From positions 1 through 64,000 of the forward strand of contig JNJK01000009.1 in NCBI GenBank assembly GCA_000701625.1: DNA of 64,000 bases. Direction: 5' to 3'. A program made the translations under genes and the position numbers. This document shows positions 49,741 through 63,754 of the stretch, piece after piece. How positions within the stretch are numbered: position 1 is the first letter of the stretch; each line of letters begins with the position of its first letter. The stretch comes from Lachnospiraceae bacterium MC2017 (GTDB taxonomy: Bacteria > Bacillota > Clostridia > Lachnospirales > Lachnospiraceae). The notes below the pieces were generated by a model. The model did not search any database. It was not told the origin of the DNA and saw only the letters and a list, made by a program, of their open reading frames with translations.

Positions 49741-49873
49741 TATCTGTTCAGTAACTTCACTGATACGATTCGCATGCCCATTCAAATTTGCCTTCGGCAA
49801 AGGGCTTGCTCACTCACACATCATGTTCTTACGTCCTCAGCAGCAAGCGCTTCGGACTGTCATAAACTGTTAC
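49741..49873. repeat. long intergenic repeat, copy A
   Basis: Begins TATCTGTTCAGTAAC and ends ACTGTTAC. It aligns over its length with 53541-53674, sharing long blocks such as TTTGCCTTCGGCAAAGGGC and GTCCTCAGCAGCAAG. Its right end supplies the last codons and stop of the Na/Pi cotransporter gene. Confidence 0.75.
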
Positions 49874-51850: not shown

Positions 51851-52205
51851 TCAGACTTCACTTTCGTTCGTCTTCACAAAGAGCGCACATGTTTCGACGC
51901 ATGAACCATTGTCCAAACTAATCTTCATATCCTTTGAAATAATCGGAAGTTTGAATTCTATAGACTTAAGCCACTGACCATTGTCCTGTCCTTCTTCGTA
52001 AATCTCAATCCTCTTTATAAACTGTGTCAGGAATTCTCTTCTCTCCGCTTCATTCATAGGTTCATACATTTTATCAAAAAATATAAGGGCCTTGTAAATG
52101 TTATCTCCGCAAACTTTTTCTGCCAGAATAGACCGCTTCTTAGCTTTAGCCTCTACTAAGGCATTTTCCAACTCTTCTATTTTGTCATAAGCATTTCTTA
52201 CCCGC
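51851..52205 (-). pseudogene. C-terminal stump of a large serine recombinase
   Basis: About 117 codons starting near NAYDKIEELENALVEAKAKK and ending with stop after KTNESEV. The run NIYKALIFFDKMYEPMNEAE, then FLTQFIKRIEIYEEGQ and WLKSIEFKLP is typical of the extreme C-terminus of large serine recombinases from Firmicutes mobile elements. The catalytic and zinc domains are missing, and the upstream sequence turns directly into the end of the ORF6N gene. A relic of an integrated element. Confidence 0.7.
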
Positions 52206-52960
52206 ATCCTTAAGAGAAGCTCCGATATGATATCCCTCAGTGTCATCTATAATCAGGAAACGATCATGAAATGCCGTTGTCTTTTTTACTGTTAATGCGG
52301 GATACTGCGCATTGAAATTATTAATATCCTGCACAGATATCTTTGCACTAGGAAGCGTATACACAAAAACATTAACGCCTGCTTTTTTCTTTGCTATTAT
52401 GTTTAATGTAATTACATCAACGTATCCATCAATCAAAATAATTTCCTTTTTAGCGTGTCCGATAATATCTGTAAGCAGGATAAACGCATCAAAAATCTGA
52501 CCATCAAAGAAAATCTTCTGATTACTTTCCTCGTGCTCCGCCATATATTCAAATATTTTACTGATTTTTTCATCAGAACTCTTTTGATATTCAAATTGTT
52601 TCAACTCAATTGCATTAATTTTTTCAAACATAAGAGCATTATTAGCTATGAAATGTCGCATTTCCTTAAATGCACGCATAATATTAATGCTTTGTTTCGT
52701 GGCTAATTCCCCTTTTAGAACAGTTGCTAGCATATAGATACCTTGTTCTGTAAATGCATAGGGCAAACTTCTTGACATAGCATTCTTAATTGCGGTGACA
52801 TTTTGGCACCGCAAATTTTCATACTCATCCTTTGTAAGCTGAAACATAAAATCTTCAGGAAAACGCTCAATATTTCTCTTAACTTGGCGATTTAAGTATT
52901 TCACCATATCCATAAATAATTGCCAAATCACTACAGAAAATAGAGATCATCACCAATTTC
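52185..52960 (-). pseudogene. ORF6N-domain protein, truncated and frameshifted
   Basis: The readable frame has about 240 residues: ORF6N DNA-binding part VKRNIERFPEDFMFQLTKDE, a linker, and a C-terminal PLD-like region ending FHDRFLIIDDTEGYHIGASL. Just upstream, in another frame, SDLAIIYGYGEILK can be read, which is the missing earlier piece of ORF6N, so one frameshift lies near 52912. The true N-terminus is lost at about 52960. The 3' end is cut at GKK and fused to the recombinase stump. Related proteins are phage or island genes. Confidence 0.65.
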
Positions 52961-52977: not shown

Positions 52978-53538
52978 TTGGATGATGATACTGTAGAATT
53001 ATTAAAAAGCGGCAAACTCAATGTCCGCCTGATCTGTGAAATGATAAAGCATCCAGAATTTCTAAATTTCCTTTCAGACATGGAGATCTACGTTGATAAT
53101 CTTGCCGGAATGCAATTTCGTAATCTAAACAAAATGATCGAACAGACGCGGATCCGACTTCAAAATAACGGTGTGCCCGACAGCGACCATTACATGAAAA
53201 CCTTGGAAAAAGCTTCCATCTCCGAGGACAATTATTTTAATAATCTTCTCGGAAACGATATTGTTAAAATAGCAAAAGATATACGTGATTCTCACAGCAT
53301 TGATTCAGAAACCGGTGATCCAATAACTCCTGTAGATGATATACTCGGCACATTTGAGGAACTAAAAAAAGCGGATAATTCCACACAGACTCAAATGGTC
53401 ATGTATAGCAAACTCTTTAAGATTAATTTCACTAAAATGGATCCTTATGAATTTAAGACCTTTACAGATATCCTTCAGCGATATTCCGACCTCTGCAAAC
53501 CTGTTAAAGGAAACGGACGCGGCAAAAAGAAAAGATAA
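52978..53538 (+). pseudogene. 5'-truncated gene of unknown function
   Basis: Helical protein of about 186 codons from LDDDTVELLKSGKLNVRLIC to KGNGRGKKKR. The only usable first codon is TTG without a ribosome site, and the frame continues upstream (NRDHHQFPVDELGL), so the gene has probably lost its 5' end where it meets the ORF6N remnant. I do not recognise a family. Its last codons contain the 18-bp sequence repeated at 61863. Confidence 0.5.
53508..53525. repeat. 18-bp direct repeat, left copy
   Basis: AGGAAACGGACGCGGCAA, found again in the same orientation at 61863-61880. The two copies bracket the LytTR system and the small-protein operons. Confidence 0.6.
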
Positions 53539-53540
53539 CG

Positions 53541-53674
53541 TATCTGTTCAGTACCCTCACAGATACTGCTTCGCATGCCCATGGAAATTTGCCTTCGGCA
53601 AAGGGCATGCTCACTCCCACCTCATATTCTCACGTCCTCAGCAGCAAGTGCTTCGGACTGTGCTGAACAGTTAC
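53541..53674. repeat. long intergenic repeat, copy B
   Basis: 134 bp with near-inverted tips, TATCTGTTCAGTA and TGCTGAACAGTTAC. Aligns with 49741-49873. No gene inside; a fold of the whole element is likely. Confidence 0.75.
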
Positions 53675-53753
53675 AAGCTAACACATAAAGGCGCACCCAC
53701 ACCTGTCAAAACGAGCAGGTATGGACGTGCGCCCTTAGTTATTAATGGAAAAT

Positions 53754-54629
53754 TTATCTTAACCACTGTTTTGCCAAATCCACCATTTTTTCAATATCGT
53801 TCATATCACGATCTATAGAAACACTCGAATCCGATCTCATCCTATCCGGATATATTGCATCATATGCCGGCTTCATAAGTTTCTGATAGAATGCCTTAAA
53901 ATCATCCATGCCACTTTGATTTGTTATATCAACTTCTCTTACTTTCTTTTGAAGAGAATCTATCAATTCCTGATTTGTTTCAACACTTGTTACTGCAGAT
54001 GTTCCGGAAGGTCTTCTTCCAAATAGACGTTCCATCTCATTCTTAGCAGCCTCAGGTATAACTTGTCTCGCTCCCCAATATGTTCTTGCCGATTCATCAT
54101 CATTCTGAACATAATTGGATTTTGATATTAACTCATTGTTTCTATCAACCAGACGGCTATTATAATCCTTCATTGCTTTAACTATAACCTGCCTCTGATC
54201 CTCGGAAAAAGAAGCAGCACATTTATCCACTAAGCTCTCAGCCAATGCCATTTTTGTATGATCACTATAACTCAAAGTGCCTTGCTTTAATTGACTGGTC
54301 ATCCCTGTAACCAGATTGCGAGCTGACTCAAATTCTTCTTCCGAAAAATCAACTTTTCCTATACGATATGCACCTTCACCGTTTTTGCTAACAGGTATAT
54401 CCGTTCTGTATAAAGTGCTCACTGGATGGTTGTTCCATGACTGTCTAACCTTATCTAATTCTTCCGCACCCAAAGCAGATATTTCTACTGTAACGGCTTG
54501 GCCGCCTAATGAGCCTGAATCCTTTGGGGTATTTTCTTTTATTGAACTTATTTTTTCAACAAAAGATGCCTGTATCTTATGCTGATAGTCTGCTGACTTG
54601 TCTATACTTACCGAATTTATGATATTCAT
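53754..54629 (-). CDS. cytoplasmic-style helical protein of the LytTR-controlled set
   Basis: Protein of 291 residues, no signal peptide or membrane segment, mostly helical. It begins MNIINSVSIDKSADYQHKIQ, with a beta-like part GQAVTVEISALGAEELDKV near residue 44 and helices to the end. I do not recognise the family. It is the second gene of an operon with the 54709 gene (79 bases apart), under the paired sites at 55624. A hairpin with an AGGA loop sits before its ribosome site. Possibly exported by a non-Sec route; this is inference. Confidence 0.65.
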   Translation of the reverse strand: MNIINSVSIDKSADYQHKIQASFVEKISSIKENTPKDSGSLGGQAVTVEISALGAEELDKVRQSWNNHPVSTLYRTDIPVSKNGEGAYRIGKVDFSEEEFESARNLVTGMTSQLKQGTLSYSDHTKMALAESLVDKCAASFSEDQRQVIVKAMKDYNSRLVDRNNELISKSNYVQNDDESARTYWGARQVIPEAAKNEMERLFGRRPSGTSAVTSVETNQELIDSLQKKVREVDITNQSGMDDFKAFYQKLMKPAYDAIYPDRMRSDSSVSIDRDMNDIEKMVDLAKQWLR

Positions 54630-54658
54630 ACGTTCTGCACTCCTTTGCTTTGTTTACT

Positions 54659-54674
54659 AAGAAATCCTTTTCCT
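54659..54674 (-). promoter_or_regulatory. RNA hairpin with AGGA loop before 54629
   Basis: Minus strand AGGAAA-AGGA-TTTCTT: six-bp stem with one G-U pair and a GGA-containing tetraloop, 16 bases before the ribosome site. One of four similar elements. Confidence 0.6.
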
Positions 54675-54708
54675 ATGTTTTCACGCTCTCAGATCAAATG
54701 CTCCCTGT

Positions 54709-55509
54709 TTACAGCTTCATATCCAGATTCAATCCAACCGCACCATCCATTAACGCCTTTGTAACCTCTCCGGTAAAAATATCATCCGAAGCATAATACC
54801 ACTCAGATTTTTTGTACTTATCTCCCAAAAGCTCCCGGTTATCAGCATCTATCTTCTCCTTAAGAGCAGCTTGCTCTTCCCGATCCGACTTACGTTTTTC
54901 TTCTAATGCTTCCTTTTTCTCAGCAGCTGCTTCTTTCTTTGCTGCAATTTTTTCCTCTGCTTTTTTCTTTTCTGCTTTCTGCTGGCGAATTTTAGCACCA
55001 TACTCATTTGGAGAGACCACCTTAGGACGATTCCCGCGCTCACCTATAGTCCAGCTACTAATATTACCGTCCTTATCTATTGCCCAACCTTTTGCAATAA
55101 CCCTGTCTCCCTGACCTTCAATATTTCGCACCTTACGCTCATCACATGCTTTCATGCTTGCAATTTCTTTTTCGTATTCTACTTCCAGTTCGGGATTATT
55201 GGCCATCTTCTTTAGGAACTCCGGAGCGATTGCCACATTAATCGTTTTGTTAGAACCATATTTCATTCCAGGTTGAAATTTAGCTGCGACAAAAGAATAA
55301 CCATCATATTTCTCTGAAAGATAAGCCAATTCATCCGTCGCCGTTTTCCTTACACTCTCATTTTGCTGTGTATTTCCAACAGATGATCCCTGCTTTTCTG
55401 TCTTATTTCCTTCATTCGTAGTCTTTAAGTCCGTTACCTGCTTTGTTTCCTTTGAATTTGTATATACACCTGCGTAGTTACCATATACACTGTTAATATC
55501 CATTGCCAT
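54709..55509 (-). CDS. DUF6033-like protein, coiled-coil
   Basis: Protein of 266 residues without signal peptide. It starts MAMDINSVYGNYAGVYTNSK, has a conserved-looking core KYDGYSFVAAKFQPGMKYGS and NVAIAPEFLKKMANNPEL (residues 70-115), then a Lys/Ala/Glu coiled coil (about 175-225) and a short tail. I place it in DUF6033 from memory of Lachnospiraceae proteins, unverified. Its leader (GGTCAAAGGAGGACAAG before ATGGCAATG) is nearly identical to that of the paralogue at 57753. First gene of the operon under the 55624 sites. Confidence 0.65.
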   Translation of the reverse strand: MAMDINSVYGNYAGVYTNSKETKQVTDLKTTNEGNKTEKQGSSVGNTQQNESVRKTATDELAYLSEKYDGYSFVAAKFQPGMKYGSNKTINVAIAPEFLKKMANNPELEVEYEKEIASMKACDERKVRNIEGQGDRVIAKGWAIDKDGNISSWTIGERGNRPKVVSPNEYGAKIRQQKAEKKKAEEKIAAKKEAAAEKKEALEEKRKSDREEQAALKEKIDADNRELLGDKYKKSEWYYASDDIFTGEVTKALMDGAVGLNLDMKL

Positions 55510-55536
55510 ATTCTTGTCCTCCTTTGACCTTCAATC

Positions 55537-55552
55537 ATGAAATCCGTTTCAT
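55537..55552 (-). promoter_or_regulatory. RNA hairpin with CGGA loop before 55509
   Basis: Minus strand ATGAAA-CGGA-TTTCAT: perfect 6-bp stem and tetraloop, about 15 bases before the ribosome site. Confidence 0.65.
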
Positions 55553-55623
55553 TCGGTTGTAATAGAATAGTTATTCCCATCTAATCTATTTTTCGGTAGC
55601 AGAAAAAGGTATATAAACCGATT

Positions 55624-55656
55624 TGTAGTGAACGGCAGGTTTGATGTAGTAAATGG
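55624..55656 (-). promoter_or_regulatory. LytTR-type operator, site 1
   Basis: TGTAGTGAACGG (55624-55635) and TGTAGTAAATGG (55645-55656) on the plus strand are direct repeats 21 bp apart. Read on the minus strand they are CCATTTACTACA and CCGTTCACTACA, followed by CGGTTTATATA with a TATATA -10 at the same distance as in site 2. They drive the 54709-53754 operon. Confidence 0.75.
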
Positions 55657-55728
55657 TAAATATTACAAACACTGTCTATATGCTTTTATACTATTGATAG
55701 TGTTACACAATTGTGGTACACTCATTTT

Positions 55729-55962
55729 ATGAATAACGATTCTTGTTTAATATACGAAGGTGACAACATATATGCTTTCAAACCACAGCCTGACAGATAC
55801 CTATGCTTTTTCTTTACAGGTAAAAAGATTATAGTTACAAACGCTTTCCAAAAGAAATCAGATAAACTACCACCTAACGAAAAGGCTACGGCTATAAAAA
55901 AGATGGTCTCCTATGAAGACGCCATTGCAGCAAATAAAAAGAATAGAAAGACTAACTATTAA
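55729..55962 (+). CDS. RelE/HigB-like toxin
   Basis: Protein of 77 residues similar to the C-terminal two thirds of HigB/RelE-type mRNA interferases: GDNIYAFKPQPDRYLCFFFTGK, then NAFQKKSDKLPPNEKATAIK. Usual family length is 100-120, so the N-terminal helices are missing or this is a short form; activity is doubtful. The ATG lies one base-pair frame before the antitoxin gene, whose start follows 1 base after the stop. It is divergent from LytTR site 1. Confidence 0.65.
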   Translation: MNNDSCLIYEGDNIYAFKPQPDRYLCFFFTGKKIIVTNAFQKKSDKLPPNEKATAIKKMVSYEDAIAANKKNRKTNY

Positions 55963-55963
55963 A

Positions 55964-56236
55964 ATGAGTTCAACATTTGACGAATTTATAACTAACGATC
56001 CCGAACAAAAAGCCCTCTTTGACAAGGAATACGAAGATTTTCTTCTTTCTGAATTTATAATTCAAAAAATGGAAGAGGAAAACCTCTCCGTTCGTTCTTT
56101 AGCCAAAAAGGCTTCCGTGTCACCTACTGTAATTCAAAAATTACGCAATAATGAAAGTGCCGAGAGAATCACATACAAAACTTTTATGTCCGTAATAAGA
56201 TCTCTCGGATATAAAATGCGTCTTGAAAAAATGTAA
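55964..56236 (+). CDS. XRE-family antitoxin (HigA-like)
   Basis: Protein of 90 residues. The N-terminal 30 residues are acidic, and a helix-turn-helix lies at about 45-85 (LSVRSLAKKASVSPTVIQKL). It should neutralise the preceding toxin and bind the promoter. Toxin-first order matches the HigBA type. Start one base after the toxin stop. A strong terminator follows. Confidence 0.75.
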   Translation: MSSTFDEFITNDPEQKALFDKEYEDFLLSEFIIQKMEEENLSVRSLAKKASVSPTVIQKLRNNESAERITYKTFMSVIRSLGYKMRLEKM

Positions 56237-56241
56237 TAAGC

Positions 56242-56285
56242 ACAAAGCGGTGACATAGTCTAATGACCTACTGTCACCGCTTTGT
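56242..56285. terminator. terminator after the toxin-antitoxin pair
   Basis: Perfect 14-bp arms ACAAAGCGGTGACA and TGTCACCGCTTTGT with a 16-base loop. Confidence 0.8.
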
Positions 56286-56318
56286 TGTGTCAATCCAAAG
56301 ACTGACTGTTCATTAATG

Positions 56319-56870
56319 TCATGCCTTAACATCTACATTTTTTCCGGTAGATACAGTTACTGTTCCGGAGCTAACTGAAACGCCCTCTGATACAATATCA
56401 ATGGAGACCGTATCAGTACTTTTTCCTTCAGATGAAACAACATGAACTCCATCTGCAGTTTCTACGTTCTCGGAAACACTTGTCTCTGCTGCTTTTTCGA
56501 TTCTTTCTTCCGCTGCTTTCTTTTCAGCTCTCTTCTTCTCGGCAGCTTTCTCAGCCTTCTTCTTTTCCGCTGCCTTTTCAGCTCTCTGGACTTCCTGATC
56601 TTCTTTGGCTGCCTGCCTTAGATCCTCGTTTGCCGTAGCAAGCGTATTTACTGTTGTTTCAGTAAGTTCTGCCGCTTTCTTTTGTGTCTCTTCCAGTTCT
56701 TCCTGCTTCTTCTTTGTATCTGCACCCCGAGCTCCGTCCAGTTTGATCTCAGCTTCAAGAACACCGGCATGACCATCCATCTATTTCTTCACGCCTTGCT
56801 GTACATGTGCAATCTGTCTTGATGTATTCGCCGATAACAGCGACCTCGTCATAATACTTGATAATGCCAT
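56319..56870 (-). pseudogene. coiled-coil protein gene interrupted by an amber codon
   Basis: From ATG 56870 (AAAGGAGGG upstream) the frame reads MALSSIMTRSLLSANTSRQI and nine more residues, then TAG at 56781-56783, and continues in the same frame without further stop for 153 codons: MDGHAGVLEAEIKLDGARGA, a Lys/Ala/Glu coiled coil, and a Ser/Val-rich tail. ATG follows the TAG directly, so restart is possible. A CAG-to-TAG change would explain it. No signal peptide. Last gene of the operon under LytTR site 2, after the 56956 gene. Confidence 0.7.
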
Positions 56871-56898
56871 ATTGCGCCCTCCTTTAGCTTGGCTGATA

Positions 56899-56912
56899 GG
56901 AAATCCGTTTCC
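56899..56912 (-). promoter_or_regulatory. RNA hairpin with CGGA loop before 56870
   Basis: Minus strand GGAAA-CGGA-TTTCC: perfect 5-bp stem and tetraloop, 16 bases before the ribosome site. Confidence 0.65.
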
Positions 56913-56955
56913 ATACTCAATACTTATTGTTTTCTTTGTATTTCACAACAGGCAT

Positions 56956-57753
56956 TCAAACCCTGGCATCAAAATGACCTAATGCTTCTTCTCTTTTTTC
57001 TTTTCTCTTTTCCTCTATCTTCTCGGCCTGTTTCTTTTTCTCTGCTTTGGCAGCGACTCGTTTCTTTTCAGCTCGATTTTCTGCAAATTTTTCAGCCTGT
57101 TTATTTGTAGCCAAAGTTCTGCTCTTACGAGCAGATTTCACCGGATCAAGATTATCTGTCAGGAAACTCTGACTCCTAACCTGTAAATGCGATTGCGTAC
57201 TTGAAAATCCGGCATCACTTGTGCAACTTCCGTGATAAGGGATGCCATCGGCTCCTGCATATTTCTTGTTCGCCTCGCTAAGCGAAAATATACTCCCGGT
57301 GATATGCATCGTTTTATTGACGCCATCACTGTATGTCATCGTATATTCTTTTCCCGTATTATATTCCCGATCCATAAGACCATAGATTTTAGCGCGGTAT
57401 GTTGCATCAGAAGCCATCTTTTTCAACTGGCTATTATCTATGTACAGGTAATGCTTACCTTTCACCACATCTTTAGGTTCTGAGCCCGTAAGGGTATACT
57501 CCGGAAACCATTCTTTTATCTGTTTTTTCAAATCCTCAACTGACATCTCTCCATCTTCCACTGTTTTTGAAGTGTAATACTTCGTTGCTTTTACCCCATA
57601 CTCAAGACCAGCTTCGTTGCTGTCTTCGATATACTTATATGCTTTCTTACCATCCCATGTTGGTTTTTCCTGCTTCGACTTCGTTTTACCCGTTGTCATA
57701 GCACTAACAATATTGATGCCGCTATTTGATATTCCGCTAATTCCCATTGCCAT
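56956..57753 (-). CDS. DUF6033-like protein, second paralogue
   Basis: Protein of 265 residues without signal peptide. It starts MAMGISGISNSGINIVSAMT, has a folded centre (EWFPEYTLTGSEPKDVVKGK, HYLYIDNSQLKKMASDATYR, TYSDGVNKTMHITGSIFSLS) and ends in a basic coiled coil (EKFAENRAEKKRVAAKAEKK) and GHFDARV. Family name is from memory, unverified. Shares its leader with the 54709 gene. Middle gene of the operon 58373-56319; CTG-free, well-spaced AGGAGG. Confidence 0.65.
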   Translation of the reverse strand: MAMGISGISNSGINIVSAMTTGKTKSKQEKPTWDGKKAYKYIEDSNEAGLEYGVKATKYYTSKTVEDGEMSVEDLKKQIKEWFPEYTLTGSEPKDVVKGKHYLYIDNSQLKKMASDATYRAKIYGLMDREYNTGKEYTMTYSDGVNKTMHITGSIFSLSEANKKYAGADGIPYHGSCTSDAGFSSTQSHLQVRSQSFLTDNLDPVKSARKSRTLATNKQAEKFAENRAEKKRVAAKAEKKKQAEKIEEKRKEKREEALGHFDARV

Positions 57754-57781
57754 AGCCTTGTCCTCCTTTGACCTTGAATCT

Positions 57782-57795
57782 TGAAATCCATTTCA
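57782..57795 (-). promoter_or_regulatory. RNA hairpin with UGGA loop before 57753
   Basis: Minus strand TGAAA-TGGA-TTTCA: perfect 5-bp stem and tetraloop, 16 bases before the ribosome site. Confidence 0.65.
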
Positions 57796-57797
57796 CA

Positions 57798-58373
57798 TTA
57801 TATGCGGTAGTCAATCCTTTTATATTTCTCCGGCAGATCACCGGTTGAAACCTTACTTGCAGCTTCCATCTCAGCTTGTGCTTTATCAGTGTTTTCTACT
57901 TCTTCTAACTCTTCTGACATTTCATCGAGTTCTTCTACCGTTTCCTCCGTCATTTCTTCTGCAATCTCAGCTAGTTCATCCATTGCCTCAGCAAGCATTC
58001 CGGCATCCTTATCAACACCGGTTGCCTCTTCGATCATATCTTCAAGTCGTTCTTCTGGAGTCTTCGGAGCATACTTTTCAGCCTCTTCCGCGATCTTTTC
58101 TGCACGCTCCCTCGCCTCATCAAGCACATGGAACATCTGTGAGTTATTATATTCTGCCTTTGCTGCTGCAATCTGTTCATCATAACCATGCAAAATATCA
58201 AGTTTTCTTGATATATCTTCCAGAGAGTCCGACTTCATATTCTTAAGATTGTCTTTCTGCTTTTCCCAAAAAGCAATCTGCCCATCTCTCTTTTCCTGCC
58301 TTTCCAAACGATCTTGAGTACTCTTTAATCCATAATTCCTGAATAAAGTAATTCCTTGTATTTTTATATTCAT
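57798..58373 (-). CDS. acidic coiled-coil protein of the LytTR-controlled set
   Basis: Protein of 191 residues, no signal peptide. N-terminus MNIKIQGITLFRNYGLKSTQ, then a mixed-charge helix (DRLERQEKRDGQIAFWEKQK, RKLDILHGYDEQIAAAKAEY) and a very acidic helix (about residues 110-165, rich in Glu, Met, Ala). Function unknown. First gene of the operon under LytTR site 2; its leader lacks the GGA hairpin of the other four but has GGAAGTGGAGGG as ribosome site. Confidence 0.65.
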   Translation of the reverse strand: MNIKIQGITLFRNYGLKSTQDRLERQEKRDGQIAFWEKQKDNLKNMKSDSLEDISRKLDILHGYDEQIAAAKAEYNNSQMFHVLDEARERAEKIAEEAEKYAPKTPEERLEDMIEEATGVDKDAGMLAEAMDELAEIAEEMTEETVEELDEMSEELEEVENTDKAQAEMEAASKVSTGDLPEKYKRIDYRI

Positions 58374-58460
58374 ATCAGCCCTCCACTTCCTTGGGCTACA
58401 AAAACAAATATGCTCTTCTAATCCTTTATTCGGATACGGATATACATATATAAACCGCTT

Positions 58461-58493
58461 TGTAGTGAACGGCAGGTTTTATGTAGTAAACGG
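58461..58493 (-). promoter_or_regulatory. LytTR-type operator, site 2
   Basis: TGTAGTGAACGG (58461-58472) and TGTAGTAAACGG (58482-58493), 21 bp apart, followed on the minus strand by CGGTTTATATA as in site 1. Drives the 58373-56319 operon and begins 6 bases after the kinase stop. Confidence 0.8.
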
Positions 58494-58499
58494 TTAATC

Positions 58500-59873
58500 T
58501 CATTCAGGTATCATTATCATTGCTGTAAATACAACCACATCTCCATCCTGTTCAAGCTGTATCGTTCCGTAGTATTTCTCCGTGATCCGCTTCATATTCA
58601 TAAGCCCATAACCGTGGCTTTCCTTATCATCCTTTGATGTCTCAGGTAGCCAGGTCTGTGAATCCAGCGTCAGTTCTCCGGAGAAACTGTTCTTAACCTG
58701 TATCAGATATGCGTTGTTATTCCTCCAAGATTTAACCTCTATACTTGGATTATCACTCTCTGATGCCGCTCTGATCGCATTTGACAAAGCATTGTTCAGT
58801 ACAACACCGATATCTATGGATTCAACCCTGCCGCTCGATGGATAATGGAAGTTCTGGATAAATTCTATCCCTGCTTCCTCAGCCTCTCGTATCTTCTCAG
58901 CGATTACAATATCCGTAACAGGATTTCCTGTCTTTGCGTTGATCTCCGGCATAGGAAATCCATTCTGCCATTCATTAAGGTAAGTTACAGCTTCTTCGGC
59001 ATCACCATTTTCAAGAAGATTTCCCAAGACCATGATATGGTTGTTGATATCATGCCTGATTCCCCTGATATCAGCATAAAGATTCTCAATGGTATGCACA
59101 TGATCAGACAATTCCTCAACCTGCTTAGATACAAGAGCATTCTGCAGCAGATCTTCCTGTGATTGTTTCACACGCTGATATGAATACATAACCGCAATAG
59201 CAGCTAGAAATGCTATTGCCCCAAACAGTGCTCTGATACCATCATAAATTGGATAGTTATTCCACAGATATATTCCGGTCTCTTTTACATACACATCTGA
59301 CAAAAACGAGCAGATCCAGTATCCTGCAGTAATAGCAATATACGGAGATGCAAGCAGAATAAGTTCTTTACACTCCATCCTCTCGTTCTTCCTGACATAT
59401 ATTTTTTCAGAGATAAGTATCTCTAAAAACAGCAACATGTTTTCTATTACTAACCTCAGAGCCAATGCAACCAGAAACCACACGAACTGTTTACCAACAT
59501 CATTCATCCCCGGTCTTGCATAGGTGACTTTACTTATCAATATCCATGGCAATGCCGCAATCACCTGCGATATCCATAGAAACAGATATATCGTCATCGA
59601 CAGAAAAATCTTCTGCGGAATATTCCTTCTTTCAAAAATCAAAGATGATATACACACTGCAGTAATTCCAACGATATATGCCACAACTCCTGACATAGAA
59701 AACGGCATCAGATAGAGAATCGACATGACTGCAAAGAACACCGCACCTGTTATGACAGCAGCAATTTTTTTCACATACTGACTATAAAATTTCAAAACTA
59801 AAACTGAACTGATAAATAAGCCAACGATCGCAGACATCATGCTCGCTATATCCCACATTCTCTCCATACCCAT
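58500..59873 (-). CDS. GHKL-type sensor histidine kinase (AgrC/VirS-like)
   Basis: Membrane kinase of about 457 residues. Six to seven helices fill residues 1-220, then a coiled linker, phosphoacceptor His in RGIRHDINNHIMVLGNLLE near residue 280, and a GHKL ATPase with LNNALSNAIRAASE near 372 and HGYGLMNMKRITEKYYG near 430. Such kinases usually sense peptides. No AgrB- or AgrD-like gene is visible nearby. GAGGTGG precedes ATG 59873; the upstream GTG is possible. It follows its regulator by 29 bases. Confidence 0.88.
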   Translation of the reverse strand: MGMERMWDIASMMSAIVGLFISSVLVLKFYSQYVKKIAAVITGAVFFAVMSILYLMPFSMSGVVAYIVGITAVCISSLIFERRNIPQKIFLSMTIYLFLWISQVIAALPWILISKVTYARPGMNDVGKQFVWFLVALALRLVIENMLLFLEILISEKIYVRKNERMECKELILLASPYIAITAGYWICSFLSDVYVKETGIYLWNNYPIYDGIRALFGAIAFLAAIAVMYSYQRVKQSQEDLLQNALVSKQVEELSDHVHTIENLYADIRGIRHDINNHIMVLGNLLENGDAEEAVTYLNEWQNGFPMPEINAKTGNPVTDIVIAEKIREAEEAGIEFIQNFHYPSSGRVESIDIGVVLNNALSNAIRAASESDNPSIEVKSWRNNNAYLIQVKNSFSGELTLDSQTWLPETSKDDKESHGYGLMNMKRITEKYYGTIQLEQDGDVVVFTAMIMIPE

Positions 59874-59902
59874 TAATCTATCCACCTCTGATCACGCAAA
59901 TT

Positions 59903-60625
59903 TTAATCCACCCATAAATTTAATGCTGTCCTGCTGTATTCCATGTAGGCTTTCAGGAATCCTTCATACCCTCGTCTTGCTATTGGAACAGTATCACCAT
60001 TTACTAATATCAAATTTGCCTTGTCATAACGTTCTATATATTTCATATTCACAAGATAAGACCTGTGAATCCGATAGAATTCTTTTCCAACAATTCTTTC
60101 AAGTGCTGATAACTGCCCGTAATATTCAATATCTTTAGTTTTCGTATGAATTATGGTCTTTCTGTTATAAACTTCTGCATAAATCAATTCCAAAAGGTTG
60201 ATTCGTATATGCGCTGTCCCTGACTGAATATCAATATATTTTTTATTCCGATCCGGCAAATATTTCATTCGTTCCAGCTCTTTTATCGCGCTTCTCAGCA
60301 CTTCTTCCAATTTTTCGTCCGCTACCGGCTTCACAAGAAAATGAAACGCGCGAAGATCAAATGAATTAAACACCTGACCTTCTTCACCGGTAATAAAGAT
60401 CAAAATCTTTCTCCAATCCCTGTCTCGCAGTAACTTTGCCACTTCCATTCCATCTATTCCCGGCATCTTTATATCGAGAATTAGAATATCCGGCAGTTCA
60501 TCTGTCTCTAACAATTCTTTTCCAGAAGTGTATGTAATAATCTCTGCATTCGGACAGAGTTTTCCAACTTTCTCGGCAAGGATAGCACATATTCTTCTTT
60601 CATCATCACATATAACAATTCGCAT
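59903..60625 (-). CDS. LytTR-family response regulator (AgrA/VirR-like)
   Basis: Regulator of 240 residues. Receiver: acidic pair in VICDDERR, phosphorylated Asp in DILILDIKMPGIDGMEV near residue 53, Lys in FHFLVKPVADEKL near 100. LytTR DNA-binding domain from about 135: LLELIYAEVYNRKTIIHT, then FYRIHRSYLVNMKYIERYDK and PIARRGYEGF. LytTR proteins bind direct repeats about 21 bp apart, exactly what is found at three promoters here, including its own (60698-60730). Confidence 0.92.
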   Translation of the reverse strand: MRIVICDDERRICAILAEKVGKLCPNAEIITYTSGKELLETDELPDILILDIKMPGIDGMEVAKLLRDRDWRKILIFITGEEGQVFNSFDLRAFHFLVKPVADEKLEEVLRSAIKELERMKYLPDRNKKYIDIQSGTAHIRINLLELIYAEVYNRKTIIHTKTKDIEYYGQLSALERIVGKEFYRIHRSYLVNMKYIERYDKANLILVNGDTVPIARRGYEGFLKAYMEYSRTALNLWVD

Positions 60626-60697
60626 AGTGATCCGCCTCCTGAGTACACTAATCCCATGTTATATTATCTCCCATCATTTCATCAGTTAGAATATCTA

Positions 60698-60730
60698 TGT
60701 AGTGAATGGTCAATTTTTTGTAGTAAATGG
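60698..60730 (-). promoter_or_regulatory. LytTR-type operator, site 3 (autoregulation)
   Basis: TGTAGTGAATGG (60698-60709) and TGTAGTAAATGG (60719-60730), 21 bp apart, 73 bases before the regulator start. A TATTCT lies downstream as -10. Confidence 0.75.
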
Positions 60731-60747
60731 CTTATCAATATAGAAAA

Positions 60748-60783
60748 GCTCGTGACCATCCATCTGCACAGATAGTCACGAGC
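60748..60783. terminator. hairpin upstream of the LytTR regulator
   Basis: Arms GCTCGTGAC and GTCACGAGC with inner pairing. It separates the toxin-like operon from the regulator promoter. Confidence 0.65.
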
Positions 60784-60794
60784 CTATAGTTGTT

Positions 60795-60913
60795 ATATCA
60801 TCTGAAAATGTTTTAAAGCCTCTTCGATTGCTTTTACTTTTTCCTCCGGACATCTCGGTTGTCTACTGTTTTTCCTAAGCAATGTTCATTTCTAACTGTT
60901 GAAACACGAGTGT
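60795..60913. repeat. 119-bp direct repeat, copy 1
   Basis: About 90 percent identical to 62101-62219, same orientation. On the minus strand one frame of both copies reads RKNSRQP-CPEEKVKAIEEA and ends in MI-stop, so the repeat is probably the tail of a former gene. The two copies bracket the 61034-61778 gene pair. Confidence 0.75.
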
Positions 60914-61034
60914 AGATATAGCATTTAGCTTTTTTGTCTTCATAAAATAGTACCCCTCCAAGTTTTTGTTGACAATTACAGCAAAGTTCTTTAAGATAAA
61001 AATTAAGAAATGGGTTTTTTACCGTACGTGTCAT
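60834..61034 (-). pseudogene. remnant frame with recombinase-like motif
   Basis: 66 codons starting inside the stop of the 61034 gene (TAATG). It encodes a CCNC-containing start (LKELCCNCQQKLGGVLFYED) and then CYIYTRVST, which resembles the first strand of serine recombinases. The rest does not continue such a protein, because the 119-bp repeat begins there. Either a small coupled third gene or a broken recombinase start. The region between it and 60626 has no other gene. Confidence 0.35.
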
Positions 61035-61576
61035 TATTGACAGCTAAGCGGCTTGCTCGTTTCTTTTTTTATGTTTATAAGATCATAAAGATACTTCTTA
61101 CCATTTTGGTCATGTCTAATAATCAGATAAATATGAAAAACATTGTACCTTTCTACTTCGTCATTATCTCCGTATACAGGTAATGCAAATCGTGATTCGA
61201 AACGATACCACCCCTTAGCAGCATCAATCGCATGCTTTTCTTTTTTGTTTTCTATATAGCTTCCACTAAAAGCAATTTCAAGCATTTCACCAAGTCCTTG
61301 AGCTGCATTTGCTTTTGCCTTTGCATAAGTTCCCTTTAACGATTTGGTATAATCTGAATGCGCGTATTCATCCGGAAGATCATTTCCAAAATAAACAACA
61401 TCGTTTGTCTCTGCATTCTTATAAAAATCTCCAATATAATTCCTTAAATAATCCTCTACATCATCCCAGGCTATTGACCTCTTCCCCTTAAAAATAATGT
61501 CATTTATCATGACAATGTTGTTTCCGTCTGCATCCTTTATTACAGATACATTTCTTGTTTTATTCTCTTTCTCCAT
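61034..61576 (-). CDS. probable toxin-like partner protein (phage/BECR-type?)
   Basis: Protein of about 180 residues, soluble. The C-terminal half (ALPVYGDNDEVERYNVFHIY, LIIRHDQNGKKYLYDLINIK, KETSKPL) resembles a group of phage- and island-encoded proteins with a barnase/EndoU-like nuclease fold; this is from memory and unverified. AKAKANAAQGLGEMLEIA precedes it. It overlaps the small helix-turn-helix gene by 17 bases, the usual layout of a toxin-antitoxin or addiction pair. Confidence 0.5.
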   Translation of the reverse strand: MEKENKTRNVSVIKDADGNNIVMINDIIFKGKRSIAWDDVEDYLRNYIGDFYKNAETNDVVYFGNDLPDEYAHSDYTKSLKGTYAKAKANAAQGLGEMLEIAFSGSYIENKKEKHAIDAAKGWYRFESRFALPVYGDNDEVERYNVFHIYLIIRHDQNGKKYLYDLINIKKETSKPLSCQ

Positions 61577-61778
61577 AATGCTCATCATCCTTTTTAATAA
61601 GTTTCTCCATCCTTATGTAATACTCCAAAAGTCTTACAACATAGTCCGGTGCATGGCGCATATCCCGTTCCCATTCTGTAACTGTTCTATAAGGAATATC
61701 AAAATAATCACAAAACTCCCTTCTATTCATACCAGTACTTTCACGAAGTTCTTTTATTTTCTTTGCTTTATTATCCAT
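61560..61778 (-). CDS. small helix-turn-helix protein
   Basis: Protein of 72 residues with a XRE-like fold: IKELRESTGMNRREFCDYFD, IPYRTVTEWERDMRHAPDYV, then a helical tail. First gene of the pair with the 61034 gene. A promoter (-35 TTGTGT, -10 TACAAT, 17 apart on the minus strand) is framed by a perfect 14-bp inverted repeat at 61802-61851, so autoregulation is likely. Confidence 0.7.
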   Translation of the reverse strand: MDNKAKKIKELRESTGMNRREFCDYFDIPYRTVTEWERDMRHAPDYVVRLLEYYIRMEKLIKKDDEHYGERE

Positions 61779-61801
61779 GAATTATCACCCTCAAACAAAA
61801 A

Positions 61802-61851
61802 TACACGTTGTGTAACATTGTAACACATGTATTTTTCTTACACAACGTGTA
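61802..61851 (-). promoter_or_regulatory. promoter framed by a 14-bp inverted repeat
   Basis: TACACGTTGTGTAA (61802-61815) and TTACACAACGTGTA (61838-61851) are exact inverted copies. On the minus strand TTGTGT and TACAAT, 17 apart, lie between and within the arms. Confidence 0.7.
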
Positions 61852-61862
61852 CTACAATAATT

Positions 61863-61880
61863 AGGAAACGGACGCGGCAA
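61863..61880. repeat. 18-bp direct repeat, right copy
   Basis: AGGAAACGGACGCGGCAA, identical to 53508-53525. It lies at the point where the second LytTR regulator gene is cut. Confidence 0.6.
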
Positions 61881-61949
61881 GTATGCCTGGATCAGCTTCT
61901 TAAGCCTCACAATATCCAGTTTGTCATCATCACAGACTGCGATTTTCAT
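61878..61949 (-). pseudogene. 5' stump of a second LytTR-type response regulator
   Basis: ATG 61949 begins MKIAVCDDDKLDIVRLKKLI then QAYL, the clear start of a receiver domain with the acidic pocket CDDD. After 24 codons homology stops at the 18-bp repeat. GAAGAAGGTGG precedes the ATG. Its own operator-like repeats lie at 62021-62051. Confidence 0.75.
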
Positions 61950-62020
61950 AGTCCACCTTCTTCCAATAATCTATCTATCATTATATGTGCATTCCCCTAC
62001 CCCAATAAAATGTTCTGCAC

Positions 62021-62051
62021 AAAACGACTATAAAATGGCATAAAACGACTA
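62021..62051 (-). promoter_or_regulatory. LytTR-like operator of the truncated regulator
   Basis: AAAACGACTA occurs at 62021-62030 and 62042-62051, exactly 21 bp apart, upstream of the regulator stump. Minus-strand core is TAGTCGTTTT, different from CCGTTTACTACA of sites 1-3. Confidence 0.6.
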
Positions 62052-62052
62052 A

Positions 62053-62096
62053 AAAAATCCGCATCTACCCAATTCATGGGATTGACACGGATTTTT
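62053..62096 (-). terminator. terminator-like hairpin
   Basis: Arms AAAATCCG and CGGATTTT; minus strand ends in seven T. Together with the 119-bp repeat copy 2 it fills the space between rlmD and the regulator stump. Confidence 0.55.
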
Positions 62097-62100
62097 CATC

Positions 62101-62219
62101 ATATCATATTAAAATGCTTAAAAGCCTCTTCAATTGCTTTTACTTTTTCCTCCGGACATCCCGGTTGTCTGCTGTTTTTCCTAAGCAATATTCATTTCTA
62201 ACTGTTGAAACATGAGTGT
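62101..62219. repeat. 119-bp direct repeat, copy 2
   Basis: Second copy of 60795-60913, about 45 bases after the rlmD stop. Confidence 0.75.
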
Positions 62220-62263
62220 TAATTCTACGAAATAAACTGAGTTCATCAGACTATGTCAACACC

Positions 62264-63754
62264 TTATTCCTTAACAAAAAGTGCGGCGGTTTCTATACTC
62301 GACGTGAACGGGAACATGTCCACGCATCCTGATTTTACGAGTCTGTAGCCCGATTTGATGATCGCGTCGATATCACGTGCCAGACTTGTCGGCTTACAGG
62401 AAATGTAAACGATGCTTTTAACGCCGTAGTCGAGAATCTTTGTAAGTGCTTTCGGAGTGCATCCCTCTCTCGGCGGATCGAGCATGATAAAATCAGGCTT
62501 TTCATCCACTGTCTCAAGCATCTTCAGCACATCTCCGGCGATAAACTCAGTATTCGCGAGACCGTTAAGCTCAGCATTTTCCTTTGCAGCCTCTACCGCC
62601 TCACCAACAATCTCAATACCGATAACCTTCTCAGCGACAGGAGCCATTATCTGACCAATAGTGCCTGTACCGCTGTACAGGTCAAAAATAACCGGTTTTC
62701 TCACAGCATCATCACCTTCGTGCATGAGCTTCATTCCTTCGATCGCGTACTCACGAGCCTTTTCATAAAGCACTTCCGCACCGTAGGAATTTGTCTGGAA
62801 GAAAGAAAACGGCGTGATCTTAAATCTAAGACCGAGAAGTTCCTCATAAAAATAATCTCTGCCGTAAATGATCTCAATATCATCACCCTTAACCGCATCA
62901 CCAGAGAGATCATTTGTGAGGTGAAGAAGTCCTACTATCTCACCCTCAAGATCAAGTGACAGGAGACAATCCTTAAATTCATTAAGGTCAGGAGTCATCT
63001 GAGAAGTTGTCTCGAGGAGTATCAGTATCTCACCAGTCTTATGAGCCTTTCTCACGAGGAAATGACGGAGATACCCTTCCTCTGTACGCTTTCTCCAAAA
63101 CGGAATCTCTCTGCTCTTAAAGAAATCATGTGTTGCGGACAGTATCTTTCTATAGTCCTCATCCACTATACGGCACTTGTCAACTGTAACCACGTCATTA
63201 AAACGACCTGCACGATGCATACCAAGTTCAAGAGGACCGTCGATCATCGCATTACCAAAAGAATACTCCATCTTATTTCTGTATCCTTCAGTCTTTGGAG
63301 ATTCCGTAACACTCTCAAACCAATCTCCCTGGAGCAAAATGTCATTCGGTACATTAACAGAACCCGGCACCGTATCCTCCGTGATCACCGGCATAGAAAC
63401 GCCGCTGCCGTAAAAAGCCGCATCACCAAAATTCTGCAGAGCATTTGTAAGGAGTTTCCTGACCTGGCCTGCCTTCATCTCAGCCTGTGACTCTGCAGAC
63501 AGATTCTGATAAGTACAGCCTCCACAAATGCCGAAATGCGGGCACTGAGGCTCTACTTCATTATATGCATGAGTCAGAACTTCCTCTAAACGACCCTCCA
63601 TTCTCTCATGCTTCTTTTTTGTAAGCTTAAAAGAAACTTTTTGCCCCGGGAGTACACCCTTAACAGTAACATTTCCTTCCTCTGTCTGTACTATACCCTT
63701 ATTCGGAAATTTAAGTTCTGTGACAATACCTTCGTAGATTTCGTTTTTCTTCAT
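62264..63754 (-). CDS. rlmD: 23S rRNA (uracil-C5)-methyltransferase, RlmD/RlmCD family
   Basis: SAM-dependent RNA methyltransferase of 496 residues. N-terminal TRAM domain (EGIVTELKFPNKGIVQTE), 4Fe-4S cysteines in CPHFGICGGCTYQN near residue 70, SAM site IFDLYSGTGTIGQIMAPVAE near 345, catalytic motif IMLDPPREGC near 425 and the nucleophile Cys in IVYISCKPTSLARD near 450. Gram-positive members methylate U747 and/or U1939 of 23S rRNA. An insertion near residues 100-140 makes it longer than most (about 450). Confidence 0.92.
   Translation of the reverse strand: MKKNEIYEGIVTELKFPNKGIVQTEEGNVTVKGVLPGQKVSFKLTKKKHERMEGRLEEVLTHAYNEVEPQCPHFGICGGCTYQNLSAESQAEMKAGQVRKLLTNALQNFGDAAFYGSGVSMPVITEDTVPGSVNVPNDILLQGDWFESVTESPKTEGYRNKMEYSFGNAMIDGPLELGMHRAGRFNDVVTVDKCRIVDEDYRKILSATHDFFKSREIPFWRKRTEEGYLRHFLVRKAHKTGEILILLETTSQMTPDLNEFKDCLLSLDLEGEIVGLLHLTNDLSGDAVKGDDIEIIYGRDYFYEELLGLRFKITPFSFFQTNSYGAEVLYEKAREYAIEGMKLMHEGDDAVRKPVIFDLYSGTGTIGQIMAPVAEKVIGIEIVGEAVEAAKENAELNGLANTEFIAGDVLKMLETVDEKPDFIMLDPPREGCTPKALTKILDYGVKSIVYISCKPTSLARDIDAIIKSGYRLVKSGCVDMFPFTSSIETAALFVKE

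Follow-up and report, generated by a model that had tools for sequence, protein, structure and literature searches.

In a 64,000-nucleotide stretch of Lachnospiraceae bacterium MC2017 (contig JNJK01000009.1, positions 1 to 64,000; hereafter the window), a LytTR-type two-component system is followed by two operons that it appears to control: operon A, with genes A1, A2 and A3 in that order, and operon B, with B1 and B2. We propose that this module belongs to the late flagellar regulon, as a branch under the control of a signal, and that its products are accessory flagellar proteins, most likely substrates of flagellar type III export; we put the probability of this reading at about two in three. 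Its parts differ in strength. Judged from control elements and gene distribution, membership in the late flagellar regulon is very likely, and passage of the proteins through the flagellum is somewhat favoured. Sequence comparison establishes the regulator and its sites, the promoter geometry of relatives, covarying leader hairpins, common C-terminal tails, and a restriction to flagellated genomes among those sampled. Much of this evidence comes from DUF6033 (PF19498), the family of B1, for which one scan yielded 398 relatives. The open-access literature that we searched contains no mention of DUF6033 (papers outside that set were not covered), and the analysis offers a testable role for anonymous gene families of motile Lachnospiraceae.

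The Regulator, the Kinase and Three Paired Sites

The response regulator (59903..60625, minus strand) combines, in one protein, a receiver domain (PF00072, 54.5 bits) with a LytTR domain (PF04397, 70.3 bits). Its partner is a membrane histidine kinase of the GHKL/AgrC-like type (58500..59885, minus strand; PF14501, 79 bits). These matches bear out the initial annotation, which had described a LytTR two-component system with a regulon of its own. Exact-match and genome pattern searches place a direct repeat before the regulator gene (60698..60730), before operon A (58461..58493) and before operon B (55624..55656), none of them assigned a strand. At each promoter the TGTAGTRAAYGG pair is spaced 21 bp start to start, as had been claimed, all six half-sites are exact, and the repeats of the target promoters stand two helical turns apart. 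The initial annotation had also proposed a search of the whole genome for the 33-bp bipartite motif. In the 4,255,528 bases of the 56 contigs, the pattern occurs with up to three mismatches at three places, all in the window (backwards control: one), so the regulon is tiny.

A further claim, that the bases downstream of the sites are identical, stands as far as the letters go: CGGTTTATATA follows both operon sites. The two operon promoters, however, are 80% identical over 90 nucleotides (and two leaders 84% over 67), a similarity that partly reflects duplication, and the bases common to both sites are therefore not independent evidence. Related regulator and kinase genes are found within the module-bearing stretches of five other loci (L027, L028, L030, L032 and L057).

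The arrangement resembles that of AgrA/ComE-type systems: a receiver joined to LytTR, two direct repeats and a GHKL kinase. We predict that the regulator binds its repeats. The module differs in that its targets have a sigma28-type −10 box, and no pheromone gene was recognised, although none was searched for.

Sigma28-Type Promoters behind the LytTR Sites

Each operon has a sigma28-like −10 box 27 bp from its LytTR repeat, both deviating from the CCGATA core: CCGAATAAA for operon A (58425..58433, minus strand) and CCGAAAAAT for operon B (55588..55596, minus strand). The available part of a study of Butyrivibrio fibrisolvens gives the sigma28 consensus as TAAA-N16-17-MCGATAa and deduces sigma28 control for many flagellins of related species (PMC3720852). 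Many promoters of DUF6033 genes resemble this consensus. CCGATA lies upstream of 21 of 32 such genes (shuffle mean 1.3) and, in a partly overlapping set of 77 from named genomes, upstream of 57 (shuffle mean 3.4, largest value 9 in 100 rounds); the longer pattern TAA-N14-18-CCGATA is found in 48 of the 77 (shuffle mean 0.35). This larger set excludes L141 and L166, with short upstream sequence, and the duplicate L162. In the resulting profile, T-T/A-A-A is separated from CCGATA-T-A by 17 bp, the last of which is G. Within MC2017 itself, CCGATA is found within 250 bp upstream of 6/10 flagellin-type genes, a count made without a chance control. A genome-wide search with the sigma28 pattern is weakly informative (32 matches versus 14 in the backwards control).

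We also scanned for the combined promoter, defined as a 12-base element that recurs after 21 bp with nine or more bases unchanged and is followed, across a gap of 24-30 bp, by CCGA[AT]. Among 14 loci with the two-component system, 15 of the 23 matches lie before a regulator or module gene, in nine genomes (one of which, at L184:3516, was assigned by gene position); the background in the other 75 GTDB loci is 29 of 3033 boxes. Five of the 14 loci (L059, L156, L036, L131 and L148) have no such match before a module gene.

The nearest precedent for this promoter logic is in Escherichia coli, where aer and trg have an activator, CRP, acting on a sigma28 promoter, according to the part of the report available (PMC2859248). 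In the module, a LytTR response regulator bound at a constant distance would take the place of CRP. None of the titles listed in our search of the open-access literature describes LytTR control of sigma28 promoters (papers outside that set were not covered), and we propose such a promoter logic here.

CsrA-Type Hairpins in the Leaders

Four of the five target genes have a leader with an A-NGGA-T hairpin, whose stem is 5-7 bp and whose loop lies 31-39 nucleotides before the start codon: A2 (TGAAA-TGGA-TTTCA, 57782..57795), A3 (GGAAA-CGGA-TTTCC, 56899..56912), B1 (ATGAAA-CGGA-TTTCAT, 55537..55552) and B2 (TAGGAAA-AGGA-TTTCTTA, 54658..54675), all on the minus strand. In each, the GGA loop is upstream of a ribosome-binding site that itself carries GGA. 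Both strands of the window hold six such hairpins, so these four leaders account for most of them. Leaders of DUF6033 genes share these features: the AAANGGATTT core is present in 14 of 32 and the hairpin in 22/77, with a shuffle mean of 0.2 for each.

The stem also covaries among relatives, including those of the A2 hairpin. In 35 aligned copies (the distinct ones of 41 hairpin stretches), the outer stem shows 82 double-change cells versus 46 in shuffled alignments (0/500), and sliding the strands lowers the pairing. Since the stretches were chosen by AAANGGATTT, the three inner pairs were unable to vary. No known RNA family reached its gathering score in a search of positions 53000-62300.

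CsrA recognises GGA in the loops of hairpins and, in the case of hag and glgC, also a site over the ribosome-binding site, according to the available portion of PMC7652899. The flagellin genes hag and fliC of Bacillus subtilis and Clostridium difficile are a close parallel: they share late flagellar control by sigma28 and FliW-CsrA, and the hag leader, in the same partial account, has CsrA sites of which one covers the ribosome-binding site (PMC7652899). The module differs by its added LytTR input and by targets that are not flagellins.

Target Proteins and Their C-Terminal Tails

The targets had been described as five helical proteins, two of them paralogues, with no signal peptide or membrane segment. 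A1 (57798..58373, minus strand; 191 amino acids, ending IDYRI) and A2 (56956..57753, minus strand; 265 amino acids, ending FDARV) are followed by A3 (56319..56876, minus strand, ending VDVKA), the third gene of operon A, which probably has its start at 56876 behind a ribosome-binding site. Operon B encodes B1 (54709..55509, minus strand; 266 amino acids, ending LDMKL) and B2 (53754..54629, minus strand; 291 amino acids). B1 is a DUF6033 protein (62.7 bits, cut-off 25) and A2 misses the cut-off at 19.8 bits; these two are the pair described as paralogues. No Pfam family exceeds its cut-off in A1, A3 or B2. Longer relatives of A2 (about 450-460 amino acids) occur in L156 and L184, and among the module-relative loci compared B2 has a homologue in L027 only.

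The structural models qualify the description as helical. That of A1 is all helix (mean pLDDT 63.4) and that of B1 combines a long helix with four strands, residues 1-46 being disordered (mean pLDDT 67.8); confidence is modest for both. Against PDB structures, the B1 model gives no match with E below 2.7 and the A1 model none below E 0.4, its list being coiled-coil and helical-bundle noise; the A1 profile finds no match among PDB sequences. The absence of membrane segments is upheld, with a highest 19-residue Kyte-Doolittle mean of 1.11 in the five proteins, and no Sec-type signal was found in any of them; judging from these sequences, they may leave the cell by a non-Sec route. Type VII secretion was considered and dropped, since the listed Pfam matches (E up to 1) include none of its families.

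The C-termini of four of the five proteins follow a common pattern, hydrophobic-D/N-x-R/K/Q-x, which we call the strict tail (genes were taken by a longest-open-reading-frame rule, at least 120 amino acids). It is absent from the 50 other genes of the window, and among 591 neighbours in 80 loci it occurs four times, each time in a DUF6033 protein. The relatives share it: 8/11 A1 homologues, all five A3 relatives and 29 of 55 DUF6033 proteins. A looser pattern, hydrophobic-D/N-xxx, was rejected as unspecific (4/50 window genes and 26/591 neighbours).

In 24 flagellar loci the strict tail is found in 22 of 472 genes, all within the flagellar system. FlgE-type proteins contribute most clearly, with 17 of 23 fitting (INLKR, VNLKR, VNMKR), and FlaG ends VDEKR (95.8 bits). 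The FlgN of MC2017 ends FDAKQ (79.2 bits), and a FlgN-like gene below cut-off, next to fliS, ends VDNKK (L221:16845-17363 and L221:7332-7817). A protein of L242 that reads as FlhB also fits, as does the DUF6033 protein of G511, a genome outside the family (MDTKA). FlgD, FliG, FliM, FliI, FliH, FliJ and MotB show no fit. With a slightly wider expression for the tail, three genes behind a genome-wide sigma28 box in 30 loci have it: FlaG, a DUF6033 protein and a 171-amino-acid protein. FliK shares the core hydrophobic-D/N in 15 of 19 cases (IDFTA in MC2017, besides VDYTA and VDFMA), the other four having E or S; the E. coli protein ends VDIFA, and the five C-terminal residues of FliK are important in export switching, as stated in the available part of PMC10965912.

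It is tempting to hypothesize that the tail, in the form hydrophobic-D/N-x-R/K-x, is a transferable tag for docking at the export gate, present in FlgE, FlaG and FlgN and by its core in FliK, and marking a large, so far unrecognised set of late flagellar export-system proteins in Lachnospiraceae (DUF6033, A1, A3 and others). We hold this idea tentatively and with well under even confidence. With so short a pentapeptide, which in FlgE closes a longer conserved region, a common function is hinted at and no more. Were the idea true, the LytTR sensor would pick the proteins loaded into the finished flagellum, a regulated secretion line.

FlgN is a chaperone kind that stays in the cytosol. Its tail therefore shows that the pattern is no mark of export as such, and this result, together with that for FlgE, takes weight from the gate tag and from flagellar export and adds it to another explanation. 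The module proteins could be late flagellar proteins kept in the cell, chaperones or regulators that bind FlhA or FlhB by the tail and tune export. The FlgN-like protein is likewise of a cytosolic kind, chaperones of the FlgN and FliS types dock at FlhA (PMC8527033, in the part available), the module proteins have charged helical bodies (the A1 model is all helix), and sigma28 and CsrA elements would suit cytoplasmic late proteins as well. Yet the tail is also found on the exported kinds FlgE and FlaG, and in the portions available of PMC7652899 and PMC6529632 the best-known target of CsrA and FliW is exported flagellin. A FliD-like family that accompanies DUF6033 genes (see below) is of an exported kind too, and DUF6033 N-termini are polar, like a possible export signal: in residues 2-26 (40 proteins versus 411 neighbours) Ser/Thr/Asn/Gln make up 0.42 versus 0.20 and hydrophobic residues 0.12 versus 0.32. 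This polar bias is weaker in the window proteins and absent from A3. On balance we consider retention in the cell a serious alternative that is somewhat unlikely.

For export through the flagellum, the nearest functional parallel is the Feds of Campylobacter jejuni, sigma28-dependent proteins that are secreted through the flagellum (PMC5223770). The same source, seen in part, describes flagellar secretion of non-flagellar proteins in Campylobacter and Yersinia and states that those of C. jejuni have no known conserved secretion signal. The Feds are different proteins from another phylum, and the available text names no LytTR system, CsrA leader or shared pentapeptide for them (PMC5223770).

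Occurrence in Flagellated Genomes

We searched the same 250 Lachnospiraceae genomes for A1, FlhA and DUF6033. FlhA is present in 129 of them and CsrA in 128 (two matches in MC2017); DUF6033 is found in 81, 80 of them over the cut-off. FlhA accompanies DUF6033 in 80 of these 81 genomes versus 49 of the 169 without DUF6033 (Fisher p 1e-29), although such counts ignore phylogeny and weigh less for the proposed role on that account. Only G235 departs from this; it has CsrA and three flagellin matches that pass the cut-off, and it is therefore probably flagellated, its FlhA having been missed in a 200-contig assembly. Strong A1 matches occur in 12 genomes (MC2017 and 11 of the 249 others), all with FlhA; four further genomes have weak matches (E 2e-4 to 4e-4), two of them with FlhA. 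In a class-wide sample that partly overlaps the first and was compared by eye, FlhA is present in each of the 12 genomes that pass the DUF6033 cut-off (background 113/291) and in two of three with sub-threshold matches, the one without it being G512. MC2017 has FlhA and ten flagellin matches. A genome that lacks both FlhA and flagellin (G053) has no match to A1 or DUF6033, and in the 20 kb examined it has kept the regulator promoter and a truncated regulator.

As a separate observation, the ten Flagellin_N matches of MC2017 (genome G000, loci L092-L101) include one with a second, divergent CsrA gene beside it.

The neighbours of the module's relatives point the same way. In 15 of 80 loci, DUF6033 has a member of a FliD-like family nearby; nine of the 14 members of this family match FliD_C (best E 1.9e-8), and its profile finds the FliD structure 5fhy in PDB (E 2.5e-7). 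FlxA-domain proteins (PF14282) are also found, and A3 is homologous to a portion of those in L030 and L035, though A3 itself gives no FlxA domain match in the Pfam search. The flxA gene of E. coli is FliA-dependent and has no obvious flagellar function, according to the available part of PMC4183435. In G511, the genes for flhA, a sigma-70-type factor and cheC, in a run that by reading also includes fliM to flhB, are succeeded by a DUF6033 gene (54.9 bits) and a FlxA gene (34.4 bits); the sequence CTAAAG...GCCGATATAA stands ahead of the pair. Elsewhere, flagellar structural genes within 6 kb of DUF6033 are rare in the 80 loci (flagellin in four), so neighbourhood alone would not reveal the flagellar link. 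The ten loci of relatives that were read had been selected such that each has one or more homologues of module genes, in L058 a truncated regulator only.

One locus with A1, A3 and a FliD-like gene also holds, in the same cluster, a gene for a 437-amino-acid protein (L028:14315-15628) with Asp-rich repeats that read like EF-hands and with no evident signal peptide or Pfam match.

The initial annotation had seen in the module a self-contained signalling unit, possibly with effectors or surface-assembly factors exported by a non-Sec route; taken as a rival reading, such a unit would have no relation to flagella. The private regulon of three sites and the lack of Sec-type signals would fit this, as would the module of G207, which adjoins relaxase and recombinase genes. 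However, all 81 DUF6033 genomes of the family have FlhA or flagellin, and the sigma28-type boxes, the CsrA-type hairpins, the FliD- and FlxA-like neighbours and the tail shared with flagellar proteins tie the module to the flagellar system. A self-contained module is thus not supported, and a role unrelated to flagella appears very unlikely.

Proposed Mechanism and Points against It

From these elements we infer a mechanism in which CsrA binding, the use of sigma28 in this strain, export and the role of the tail are deduced from sequence. Completion of the hook would free sigma28, and the kinase, on sensing its signal, would phosphorylate the LytTR regulator. In the regulator and target promoters, half-sites 21 bp apart would be followed after 24-30 bp by a sigma28-type −10 box; with both elements in one promoter, transcription would need sigma28 as well as the phosphorylated regulator. 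The hairpin and the GGA of the ribosome-binding site would subject translation to the FliW-CsrA switch by which flagellin is metered, CsrA blocking translation until FliW is free. Next, the proteins would make contact with the export gate through a disordered N-terminus, the C-terminal tail, or both. If export holds, these bacteria have a signal-controlled flagellar secretion line, besides the promoter logic proposed above and a short C-terminal signature tied to the flagellar export system.

Several observations, besides the tail of FlgN, weigh against a late flagellar role with export. The −10 boxes of the window read CCGAAT and CCGAAA, not CCGATA, and the corresponding place in the regulator promoter reads GAGATAATAT, which is not sigma28-like (CCGATAATAT in the relatives G112, G207 and G053). 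A weak −10 box may be compatible with an activator-dependent promoter; drift is the alternative. The leader of A1 has no CsrA-type hairpin (its fold has a GCCC/GGGC stem that encloses two GGA), and the NGGA hairpin is missing when the five leaders are folded one by one to minimum energy. B2 does not end in the tail, and none of 19 FliK proteins fits the strict form. Finally, function could not be read from the fold of A1 or B1, given models of modest confidence and no PDB match below E 0.4.

The off-consensus boxes also bear on whether the module works in this strain at all. A3 has an in-frame TAG directly before ATG 56780, in a frame that runs to the stop at 56319; relatives in L027, L028 and L057 are uninterrupted. 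The TAG may be a nonsense mutation, an assembly error or a point of re-initiation, and because of it this copy may be decaying. The module would then be a functionless remnant, a view that the phage-type gene and the repeats around it (see below) would also fit. Against decay, the regulator, the kinase, A1, A2, B1 and B2 are open and the LytTR sites exact, and the CCGAA form recurs at targets in G112, G207 and G094, those of L028, L114 and L184 having CCGATA. We regard a remnant as improbable.

In two genomes of other families, DUF6033-like genes (five in G415, one in G274; loci L103 and L104) are beside genes for a CcpM radical-SAM maturase, an S8-type protease and, by reading, an ABC transporter, and they show no sigma28 box, a further point against a flagellar role. 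They are possibly cargo or precursors of a modified-peptide (RiPP) system, and the module proteins might be the same. The missing sigma28 box sets the two loci apart from the module, though, and the window proteins have 0-1 cysteines each. No maturase was recognised on reading the open reading frames of 50-64 kb or the stretches of relatives that were read, although no dedicated search was made. For the module this origin seems extremely unlikely.

Mobile Surroundings

To judge from the genes and repeats around it, the module was possibly acquired with a mobile island. In G207 the module stretch has genes for a resolvase/recombinase, a MobA-type relaxase and a CHC2 primase. A plasmid origin was considered and rejected, A1 having no match in the plasmid collection.

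Direct repeats are present on both sides. Downstream of operon B, 105-nucleotide copies (89% identical) lie at 49769-49873 and 53570-53674, and enclose (51851-52931) a phage-type gene of the ORF6N kind (85 bits) together with a weak recombinase-tail match to DUF4368 (17 bits, below cut-off). Beside the regulator, 119-nucleotide copies (92% identical) at 60795-60913 and 62101-62219 flank an unknown gene of 184 amino acids and a small helix-turn-helix-like gene, together with a segment (61791-61949) that reads like a response-regulator fragment and gives no Pfam match; the region reads as the remains of an insertion. Between the two operons, the plus strand (55711-56236) encodes a Gp49-like protein (PF05973, 39 bits) and another with weak likeness to helix-turn-helix proteins, a pair that looks like a toxin-antitoxin system of the HigB/HigA type.

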